Below are positions 44,934-46,775 of a DNA stretch of 63,498 bases, piece after piece. The stretch comes from Intestinibacillus massiliensis (GTDB lineage Bacteria; Bacillota; Clostridia; Oscillospirales; Butyricicoccaceae). How positions within the stretch are numbered: position 1 is the first letter of the stretch; each line of letters opens with the position of its first letter. The stretch is from NCBI RefSeq assembly GCF_900155735.1, contig NZ_LT707059.1:365672-429169 (forward strand), read 5' to 3'. The position numbers and the translations under genes were made by a program. A model generated the notes under the pieces. That model had not been told where the DNA came from. It made no database searches and saw nothing but the letters and a program-made list of their open reading frames with translations.

Positions 44934-45413
44934 ATGAAATTTAACGGCACCCTGCTTGTAGTGCAGGATTTGGAACGCTCCAAGCGTTTTTATATGGAGC
45001 TTATGGGTTGCAAGGTCACCGAAGATTTTGGCGCAAACATCACGTTTGACAACGCCTTTTCGCTGCAAACCCTGGAAAGCTGGTCGGGGTTTATCCATCG
45101 CGCCCCGGCTGACGTGCGGTTTGCGGGCAACGACGCAGAGCTTTATTTCGAGGGGGACGACTTTGACGGGTTCGTAAAGAAGCTGGAGTCCTGGCCAGGT
45201 TTGGAGTACGTCCACCCGGTGCAGGAACACTCCTGGGGACAGCGCGGCGTGCGCTTTTACGACCCGGACAGGCATGTCATAGAGGTCGGGGAAAGCATGC
45301 GCGACGTGTGCCTGCGGTTCCGTGCGCAGGGCATGACAAACGCGCAGGTCGCAGCGCGCATGGACGTGGACGCCGCCTATGTCGCGCGCTGGCTGGCGGA
45401 AGATTTTGCTTGA
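44934..45413 (+). CDS. VOC-family (glyoxalase-like) protein
   Basis: A 159-residue protein with one VOC module (about 1-118; GTLLVVQDLERSKRFYMELMG, VRFYDPDRHVIEVGE). A C-terminal extension (about 121-159; RFRAQGMTNAQVAARMDVDAAYVARWL) looks like a helix-turn-helix but is common in this subgroup. Metal or substrate unknown. ATG 44934 follows AAAGGGGA. Its stop codon lies inside the -35 of the following promoter. Confidence 0.88.
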   Translation: MKFNGTLLVVQDLERSKRFYMELMGCKVTEDFGANITFDNAFSLQTLESWSGFIHRAPADVRFAGNDAELYFEGDDFDGFVKKLESWPGLEYVHPVQEHSWGQRGVRFYDPDRHVIEVGESMRDVCLRFRAQGMTNAQVAARMDVDAAYVARWLAEDFA

Positions 45414-45439
45414 CAGTTTCTCCCGCCCCATGGTATGAT
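45410..45439 (+). promoter_or_regulatory. Strong promoter of the leader RNA and Na+ pump gene
   Basis: Perfect -35 TTGACA (45410-45415, overlapping the VOC stop codon), 18-bp spacer, extended -10 TGg-TATGAT (hexamer 45434-45439). The predicted start is near 45446, directly before the structured leader. Confidence 0.88.
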
Positions 45440-45448
45440 ACCTGTAAC

Positions 45449-45534
45449 AAAGGGGAGTAGTCAGCGCGGGCAGATGCCTGCGTGATGAAGCCAACAAGCG
45501 TGTTTGCCCGCCCAGGGCATCCTGGCTTCACCTT
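45449..45534 (+). ncRNA. Structured leader RNA, candidate riboswitch aptamer
   Basis: Starts AAAGGGGAGTAG. A short closing stem AAGG/CCTT (45450-45453 with 45531-45534) encloses a hairpin GCGCGGGC/GCCTGCGT (45464-45471 and 45476-45483) and a long-range pairing TGAAGCCA/TGGCTTCA (45486-45493 and 45523-45530) around two small hairpins. An alternative pairing GCGGGCA with TGCCCGC would cross it. It is followed by an intrinsic terminator and a Na+-translocating decarboxylase gene. The GGGGAGUAG start is shared with Mn2+ (yybP-ykoY) aptamers, but the 3' part differs; the context suggests the Na+ (DUF1646) class. The class is not settled. Confidence 0.7.
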
Positions 45535-45542
45535 AAATGACC

Positions 45543-45582
45543 AGACCTGTGTTCCTGTTTTTCAGGGACACAGGTCTTTTTT
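45543..45582 (+). terminator. Terminator between leader RNA and the decarboxylase gene
   Basis: A 15-bp stem, AGACCTGTGTTCCTG (45543-45557) with CAGGGACACAGGTCT (45563-45577) around five T, followed by a T run. It is 65 bases before the start codon and is the probable expression platform of the leader. Confidence 0.92.
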
Positions 45583-45647
45583 GTTATCCAGCCCGGGATA
45601 TATGGGCAAGATAAGCAGGTATGGTGCAAAATAATGGAGGCGATGAG

Positions 45648-46775
45648 ATGGAGTTTTTGTGGGAAGGCATCCTGGCGGTCACCTGGAAACAGCTCGTCAT
45701 GTACTGTGTGGGCGGCGCGCTGATCTGGCTGGCGATCAAGAAAAACTATGAGCCGGCGCTGCTGCTGCCGATGGGGTTCGGCGCGATCCTGGTCAACCTG
45801 CCGATGTCGGGGGTGATCGACCAGATCGCGCAGGGCGTGGGGACGACGCACGGCATCATCCAGTGGCTGTTTGAAACGGGCATCGGCGTATCCGAGGCGT
45901 TCCCGCTGCTGCTGTTCATTGGCATCGGCGCGATGATCGACTTTGGGCCGCTGCTCTCCAACCCGAAGATGTTCCTGTTCGGCGCGGCGGCGCAGTTCGG
46001 CATCTTCCTGACGATTATCGTCGCCACGCTGCTCGGGTTCGACATCCGCGACGCGGCGTCCATCGGCATTATCGGCGCGGCGGACGGCCCGACCTCGATC
46101 CTGGTTTCCCAGGTGCTGCGCAGCGGGTATATGGGTGCGATTGCCGTGGCGGCCTATTCGTATATGGCGCTGGTGCCGATCATCCAGCCCATGGCGATCC
46201 GGCTCGTCACGACGAAGAAGGAACGCGCCATGCGGATGCCGTATACGCCCGGCAATGTATCCAAGCGCATGCGCATCCTGTTCCCGATCCTTGTATCGGT
46301 CATCGCGGGGTTGGTGGCGCCGGCTTCGGTTTCGCTCGTCGGATTCCTGATGTTCGGCAACCTGATCCGGGAATGCGGCGTGCTGAACCGCCTGGCCGCG
46401 ACCGCGCAGAACGAGCTGGCGAACCTGGTTACGCTGCTGCTCGGCCTGACGATCTCTTTCTCCATGCATGCGGAACAGTTCGTTACATGGCAGACGCTCA
46501 TGATCCTTTGCCTCGGGCTGTTTGCCTTCGTGTTTGACACGATCGGTGGCGTGCTGTTCGCCAAGCTGCTGAACCTGTTCTGCAAGAACAAGGTCAACCC
46601 GATGATCGGCGCCGCGGGGATTTCGGCCTTCCCGATGTCGGCGCGCGTTGTGGAAAAAATGGGCATCCAGGAGGATAACCAGAACCATCTGCTGATGCAC
46701 GCGGTCGGCGCGAACGTGTCCGGCCAGATCGCGAGCGTTGTCGCGGGCGGCGTCATCCTCGGGTTCTTCTTGTAA
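45648..46775 (+). CDS. oadB: Sodium-translocating decarboxylase beta subunit
   Basis: A 375-residue polytopic membrane protein of the OadB/GcdB/MmdB family that couples decarboxylation of a carboxybiotin to Na+ export. Functional residues lie in IIGAADGPTSI (the essential Asp), ISAFPMSARV and VGANVSGQIASVV. The alpha carboxyltransferase and biotin carrier are not adjacent, so the substrate is unknown. ATG 45648 is 7 bases from GGAGG; the upstream ATG 45621 is rejected. Confidence 0.93.
   Translation: MEFLWEGILAVTWKQLVMYCVGGALIWLAIKKNYEPALLLPMGFGAILVNLPMSGVIDQIAQGVGTTHGIIQWLFETGIGVSEAFPLLLFIGIGAMIDFGPLLSNPKMFLFGAAAQFGIFLTIIVATLLGFDIRDAASIGIIGAADGPTSILVSQVLRSGYMGAIAVAAYSYMALVPIIQPMAIRLVTTKKERAMRMPYTPGNVSKRMRILFPILVSVIAGLVAPASVSLVGFLMFGNLIRECGVLNRLAATAQNELANLVTLLLGLTISFSMHAEQFVTWQTLMILCLGLFAFVFDTIGGVLFAKLLNLFCKNKVNPMIGAAGISAFPMSARVVEKMGIQEDNQNHLLMHAVGANVSGQIASVVAGGVILGFFL

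Follow-up and report, generated by a model that had tools for sequence, protein, structure and literature searches.

At this locus a leader RNA ending in a terminator precedes a gene named after a sodium-pump decarboxylase that has no decarboxylase beside it, which raises the question of what ligand the leader senses and what the protein does. The stretch analysed here (the window, 63,498 nucleotides) belongs to a genome of 2.84 Mb, the OadB protein of which grouped in a tree with that of an Intestinibacillus massiliensis MAG (Butyricicoccaceae). The protein is called 'sodium ion-translocating decarboxylase subunit beta' in the database. The initial annotation had seen here a candidate riboswitch controlling a Na+-pump decarboxylase subunit; the protein is indeed an OAD_beta protein (PF03977, 509.2 bits, cut-off 31.6), but service in a decarboxylase is probably not its actual role.

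The promoter (TTGACA/18/TATGAT, with TG ahead of the -10 element) carries a perfect -35 hexamer that overlaps the TGA stop codon (45411-45413) of an upstream glyoxalase ORF, as had been read from the sequence before. Among the OadB leaders of the family, the best promoter match reached 10 or 11 of 12 positions in 25 of 26 cases, against 1 of 26 after one shuffle of each, and ended 9, 10 or 12 bases ahead of the fourth base of the RNA match. The RNA start GGGGAGTAG was recovered in the leader alignment (L1), as were the 8-bp hairpin (P2), the long-range pairing TGAAGCCA/TGGCTTCA (P3.1, strands UGAAGCCA and UGGCUUCA) and the 15-bp terminator, the previously given distance of which to the start codon, 65 bases, fits the ATG at 45648. 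The closing helices P1.1 (ACAAAGG/CCUGUGU) and P1.2 (GUCA/UGAC), which form the switch, had gone unnamed. A proposed alternative crossing pairing (45466-45472/45505-45511) is complementary in the window but did not covary, with 50.4% of the cells paired versus 51.7% in shuffled alignments and 423 of 500 shuffles as high. The coordinates of all features are given in the table.

Features of the leader and of the two genes behind it, in window coordinates
Feature	Position	Strand	Basis or remark
Sigma-70-type promoter, extended -10	45410..45439	+	consensus scan 11/12; conserved before 25/26 family OadB leaders
P1.1, predicted switch helix, 5' strand, one A-G mismatch	45447..45453	+	pairs with 45546-45552
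L1 GGGGAGUAG, 5' side of the putative metal-binding internal loop	45453..45461	+	near-invariant columns; overlaps the ends of P1.1 and P1.2
P1.2, 5' strand	45460..45463	+	pairs with 45538-45541; 98.3% of cells paired; two-sided change in 4/4 pairs
P2 hairpin, 8 bp (45464-45471/45476-45483)	45464..45483	+	90.8% of cells paired; two-sided change in 7/8 pairs
P3 arm: P3.1 (45486-45493/45523-45530) and P3.2 (45505-45509/45515-45519)	45486..45530	+	92.9% and 80.5% of cells paired
L3 loop ACAAGCG, starting with ACA at 45494	45494..45500	+	A45496 corresponds to A48 of X. oryzae, which contacts Mn2+
Joint from P3 to P1.2 at the place of P4, no hairpin	45531..45537	+	7 unpaired bases here and in models R1 and R2
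3' strands of P1.2 (45538-45541) and P1.1 (45546-45552), CAGA of L1 between	45538..45552	+	AGAC in 88/88 leaders
Intrinsic terminator, 15-bp stem (45543-45577) and T run	45543..45582	+	5' arm contains the 3' strand of P1.1; mutually exclusive with P1.1
Solitary oadB-like gene	45648..46775	+	PF03977; longest ORF starts at 45621; start from MEFL of the homologues and GGAGG at 45636
Mini-gamma ORF, 45 aa, one hydrophobic helix	46789..46926	+	PF04277 weak, 14.6 bits, cut-off 27

In the alignment of 88 family leaders, 89.0% of the cells paired (73.8% when shuffled), 376 two-sided changes were counted (115.9 when shuffled) and 29 of 32 pairs carried one, whereas pairing fell to 31-46% when the partners were slid by 1-3 columns. 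The 45 leaders of named loci (42 before oadB and 3 before mntP) gave 92.8% pairing and 258 two-sided changes versus 79; both alignments (A4 and A5) hold related sequences and were fitted to the model, towards the structure of which the pair counts lean. The outermost pairs of P1.1 were kept least (27-31 of the 88 unpaired). P2 and P3.1, for which covariation among homologous leaders had been suggested as a check, covaried in both sets. Leader and terminator together folded with a z of -5.47 (none of 200 shuffles was equally stable). Folded up to the terminator only, the leader gave a z of -1.98 (10 of 200 as stable), a weak value for the aptamer, and folding energy was rejected as sole proof. 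The main evidence for the predicted structured RNA is comparative, from covariation rather than from folding energy, and it supports the architecture of a transcription-terminating riboswitch with its own promoter.

Searching the window against Rfam at the curated thresholds gave nothing. The yybP-ykoY model RF00080 scored 10.1 bits (E=0.46) on the window leader, below its gathering cut-off of 45, and gave nothing at E<=10 on a longer stretch of the window; none of the leaders scanned reached this cut-off (best 35.3 bits). The window RNA was therefore filed as a divergent variant and not as a member of RF00080. A DNA search of 60 related genomes revealed five leader homologues (E 8e-27 to 0.02), four of which precede an OadB gene and the fifth a Na+/Ca2+-exchanger-type gene. 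RF00080 matched three of the five below threshold (24.9, 20.6 and 15.4 bits); another leader from the genome of the window scored 30.8 bits.

Two covariance models were compared. R1 was trained on five oadB leaders, the window's included, and two exchanger leaders (alignment A3), and matched in 59 of 87 family genomes, with 88 leaders in the loci examined. R2 was trained on 43 mntP-type leaders and no oadB leaders; its training alignment was fitted by R1, so that the two models share one structure. With E-values that are rough by the tool's own statement, R2 matched the window at 45445-45553 with 78.0 bits (E=2.2e-17), its sole match in 63 kb up to E=10. In 20 kb of E. coli DNA around mntP and alx, the gap before mntP was the sole match of either model (R2, 24.3 bits, E=2.7e-4; R1, 17.4 bits, E=0.0086), and the alx leader was missed by both. 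The mntP and oadB leaders were thus found by each other's models. The analysis thus shows the structure, its covariation and the homology of the oadB leader to mntP leaders, and with this homology the new riboswitch class that the initial annotation had held possible was rejected. Mn2+ (yybP-ykoY) had been set aside for the 3' half of the RNA and proved to be the right class after all: once the missing P4 is recognised, this half fits the class pattern GYCA-ACA ... UGGC ... AGACC.

The window RNA shares with yybP-ykoY elements (RF00080; L. lactis, X. oryzae, E. coli mntP) the loop L1 with AGAC opposite, the ACA of L3, GYCA/UGGC at P3.1, a P1.1 that competes with the terminator, and targets of the mntP, exchanger and P-type ATPase kinds. 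At L1, 84 of the 88 family leaders have GGGGAGUA or AGGGAGUA. Unlike these elements, it scores below the Rfam cut-off, stands before a solitary oadB, and has the 7-base joint in the place of the P4 that makes the class's four-way junction. A three-way-junction element of the class has already been described, the streptococcal mgtA Mn2+ switch (PMC9495176). The RNA looks like part of a P4-less, divergent branch of the yybP-ykoY (Mn2+) class that is missed by Rfam's model. The low RF00080 score, the lack of P4, the missed alx leader and the A-G mismatch in P1.1 speak against a Mn2+ switch, as do the weak fold of the aptamer by itself, the low computed probability of P1.1 and the leaders in which the scan described below detected no overlapping terminator.

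Of the Rfam models, RF02617 (SSRC10; 26.1 bits, E=0.0026, cut-off 56) matched the window leader best; its consensus contains GGGAGuag and GUCaa. SSRC10 differs in that it was reported as a Streptococcus pyogenes 'sRNA' before a putative calcium transporter gene (PMC3675131); this 'sRNA' may be a Mn2+ switch of that gene that has terminated early, and we infer that SSRC10 is the mgtA switch. RF02617 was rejected as a leader detector, since only 2 of its 13 matches in 8 genomes were recognised as known leaders and the window's was missed.

The L3 loop reads ACA48UACU in X. oryzae and UCA41AUUC in L. lactis, and N7 of the third-base adenosine contacts Mn2+ (PMC6754395). In the window, ACA occupies 45494-45496, placing A45496 at this discriminator position. 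Located by a simple motif, as the base after C(A/G)AC, the discriminator is an A in 25 of the 26 family OadB leaders and a C in the other. Of the 41 named OadB leaders, 38 have A and one has G, the motif being absent from two; for all 88 family leaders the counts are 79 A, three C and six lacking the motif.

The 3' strand of P1.1 (45546-45552) also belongs to the terminator, and the two helices are mutually exclusive. In a terminator scan, 67 of the 88 family leaders and 31 of the 41 named ones had a terminator that overlaps the leader end; in the remaining 21 and 10, it lay downstream only (6 and 4) or was not found by the scan (15 and 6). In the literature, P1.1 is the switch helix, its 3' part otherwise enters the terminator, and Mn2+ promotes read-through (PMC11087558); a C. 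difficile review calls members of this class OFF switches (PMC11477304). The experimental paper was followed over the review in transferring ON logic to the window, and the strand common to P1.1 and the terminator likewise suggests that Mn2+ means ON. For the full leader, the energies were -37.9 kcal/mol in the closed form, -61.2 in the terminated form and -63.4 in the minimum-energy fold, which is also terminated, and the computed probability of P1.1 without ligand stayed at or below 0.34 throughout transcript growth. The free RNA would therefore terminate, and read-through would need P1.1 to be held while the terminator forms. At low Mn2+, then, 45546-45552 would enter the terminator and transcription would stop. 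At high Mn2+ the ion would join L1 and L3 and hold P1.1 closed, keeping its 3' strand from the terminator, so that the polymerase would read into oadB and the mini-gamma ORF. Mn2+ binding, the docking of L1 and L3 and the ON logic are what we infer from the riboswitch class. In the minimum-energy fold, AAGG (45450-45453) can also pair with CCUU (45531-45534) just past P3, competing with P1.1; this pairing is perhaps part of the ligand-free state.

We regard it as very probable that 45447-45582 constitutes a transcriptional ON riboswitch of the yybP-ykoY (Mn2+) type, with a three-way junction lacking P4. A constitutive attenuator without ligand would account for the much greater stability of the terminated form, but two-sided changes occur in every helix and the unpaired metal site is conserved, which makes it very improbable. 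Still harder to credit is a Na+-I (DUF1646) riboswitch turning on Na+ export, the class that the initial annotation had favoured. It would share the ON logic, and oxaloacetate decarboxylase genes are occasionally associated with it in print (PMC9337991); however, the three Rfam searches of the window had no match to it, in sequence or structure, among those listed, and the mntP leaders match strongly. More room, though still little, is left for a yybP-ykoY variant that keeps the fold but has shifted its specificity to Ca2+, Na+ or some other ion, matched to OadB. The L3 loops of oadB leaders frequently read ACAAGC(A/G)UG in place of ACAUACUUG, and P3.2 is set off by mismatches; two of the targets in the window's genome belong to Na+-linked families, and the streptococcal three-way-junction member also binds Ca2+ (PMC9495176). 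Against such a shift stand the conserved discriminator adenosine and L1, the cross-detection of the mntP and oadB leaders, and a family OadB leader (L053) with the canonical ACAUACA.

A Mn2+ riboswitch is often the mark of a Mn2+ exporter, for example MntP. Downstream of the 88 family leaders, genes for MntP (39), OadB (26), a P-type ATPase (6) and an exchanger (4) were found, besides CitMHS-like (3), Na/Pi-like (2), TetR (2) and six other genes, five of which appeared by eye MntP-like and one exchanger-like. The genes were named by motif or cluster and one representative per kind was searched in Pfam, giving Mntp, Na_Ca_ex, cation ATPase, CitMHS, Na_Pi_cotrans and TetR. Three leaders occur in the window's genome, one each before oadB, an exchanger gene and mntP. 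The CitMHS-like (L116, L117, L120), Na/Pi-cotransporter-like (L109, L110) and TetR-like (L111, L112) genes are unusual targets for a Mn2+ switch. Separately, three Lachnospiraceae leaders upstream of solitary oadB (L232, L246, L251; R2 scores 22.6-23.5 bits) seem by eye to lack P2 and to have a small P4-like hairpin; they seem to represent a second route to a three-way junction.

PF03977 matched in 84 of 87 family genomes, many of which have two types of the protein. The higher-scoring type adjoins alpha and biotin carrier in all 8 loci tested and gamma in 7 of them, whereas these three were found in 0 of 29 loci tested of the lower-scoring type, which includes the window's. Alpha and biotin carrier were likewise absent beside oadB in 79 of the 80 named loci, several of which are short, so that a missing neighbour is less informative in them; in the remaining one, L248, a separate operon lies close by. 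When a tree was built from 141 proteins, left from 167 long rows after removal of copies, the two types came to lie on either side of one branch (106 versus 35, support 100). The method was a quick one with long branches flagged, and each protein was labelled 'solitary' or 'operon' by its better blast hit rather than by its locus.

R1 matches lay upstream of 26 of the 38 lower-scoring OAD_beta places (<=509 bits, one of them partial, in G067) and of 0 of the 71 higher-scoring places, split and compared by eye with other partials dropped. The best 80 of 246 named loci, which share genomes with the family set and were recorded mostly as Oscillospiraceae, Lachnospiraceae or Clostridia, gave 49 R2 matches, of which 46 precede oadB and 3 a neighbouring mntP-like gene. 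The idea that every solitary oadB has such a riboswitch was rejected, given that no R1 leader was found at 12 of the 38 family genes and no R2 leader upstream in 34 of the 80 named loci; one of the latter (L250) is cut by a contig edge, with the 3' end of a leader visible by eye.

Just 3' of solitary oadB, weak PF04277 matches were obtained in 8 of 8 genomes tested (E 0.003-0.25). The small ORF there has the motif GM-x-GIF and mostly 37-56 aa, and a motif search found such a mini-gamma-like ORF in 98 of 104 solitary loci with enough sequence (loci not freed of doubles). Some have an N-terminal extension, which in L219, L221, L222, L224, L226, L229, L248 and L290 is (G)IIGGADGPT-like and resembles the tip of OadB's helical hairpin. 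In StOAD, gamma can be seen attached to beta over residues 2-43, and its C-terminal tail serves to recruit alpha (PMC7274780). Only the first of these parts has a counterpart in the mini-gamma, which is devoid of the alpha-binding tail.

The window OadB matched the beta subunit of the StOAD beta-gamma structure (PDB 6iva) with E=8.4e-100, and the two systems have in common a single-helix gamma-like partner; StOAD residue numbers were counted on this alignment. Equivalents of the Na+-binding D203, S382 and N412, as well as Glu40 and Ser419, were invariant in 106 of 106 solitary proteins. Unlike in StOAD, the solitary OadB has no adjoining alpha or biotin carrier, and two further positions are relaxed: the R304 equivalent is R in 30, S in 58, T in 11, N in 6 and K in 1 of the 106, and the N311 equivalent is N in 63 of 106, whereas both are kept in 35 of 35 operon-type proteins. 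Positions that distinguish the types include I97, A144, D297, F328 and Q360; D297 is found in 106 of 106 solitary proteins versus S in 32 of 35 of the operon type, in a stretch that looks membrane-bound.

These residues bear on a rival reading, in which the solitary OadB is still a decarboxylase beta subunit and borrows alpha and the biotin carrier from an operon elsewhere in the genome. Such an operon with alpha exists in the window's genome, and alpha was matched in 7 of 8 genomes tested. In StOAD, R304A and N311A inhibit decarboxylation moderately and E40A severely (PMC7274780); Glu40 is kept throughout, and the window protein keeps R304, N311 and the Na+ residues as well, so that the case for lost decarboxylation is only partial. 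Glu40, together with the 12 of 38 and 34 of 80 genes without a leader, also counts against a transporter as the target. Pointing the other way are the missing alpha-recruiting tail of the mini-gamma, the relaxation of R304 and N311 in the lineage, and G031, the one of the eight genomes without an alpha match, which is 97% complete and has a solitary OadB as its one beta and no gamma over the cut-off. On balance, we consider the borrowing of subunits unlikely.

In five of 109 solitary loci (L275, L280, L281, L291, L295) oadB lay near mntP or a P-type cation ATPase gene, versus 0 of 38 operon loci; the operon control is smaller (182,922 versus 1,039,403 bases) and the 109 loci were not freed of doubles. 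Four loci where oadB has no leader of its own have it near mntP, three of them also near a P-type cation ATPase gene, and the fifth has it near the ATPase gene alone; in L281, L291 and L295 the mntP-like neighbour of the leaderless oadB bears a leader itself. From regulation and neighbourhood, a role in Mn2+ homeostasis is likely and Mn2+ export possible. We propose that the solitary OadB is a Na+-coupled transporter in Mn2+ homeostasis, with Mn2+ as the putative transported ion. The regulated pair would best be explained as a stand-alone beta-gamma transporter module, derived from the decarboxylase sodium pumps and serving Mn2+ or divalent-cation homeostasis beside MntP and the Na+/Ca2+-exchanger-type protein, both of which have like leaders in the genome; the chances of this reading appear about even. 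That OadB and the mini-gamma form a new family of stand-alone, probably Na+-coupled, Mn2+-induced exporters of Mn2+ (divalent cations), secondary transporters that have lost the biotin-driven engine, is a more tentative proposal that we would not call probable; hints of it are the leaders at 46 of 80 named loci, the neighbourhood of mntP and ATPase genes where oadB has no leader, and D297, invariant in the solitary type alone.

In the titles and beginnings of abstracts covered, no paper linking OadB to yybP-ykoY or Mn2+ was found; an earlier mention in Dambach 2015, Price 2015 or Martin 2019 is possible. A paper on Na+ riboswitches names both yybP-ykoY and oxaloacetate decarboxylase, tying the decarboxylase to the Na+ switches (PMC9337991). 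The locus thus sets a Mn2+ mark, assigned from the riboswitch class, on a protein named as a decarboxylase subunit, with no decarboxylase beside its gene. Should OadB transport Mn2+, the present name would be wrong for a lineage of such proteins in Clostridia, and experiments could then address how a pump driven by decarboxylation turned into a stand-alone transporter. The P4-less branch, matched in 132 of 394 genomes of the order, tends to fall under the public cut-off, and the Mn2+ regulons of gut Clostridia are therefore probably under-annotated. With its gene under a putative Mn2+ switch, the orphan OadB may therefore help gut bacteria to cope with excess manganese.
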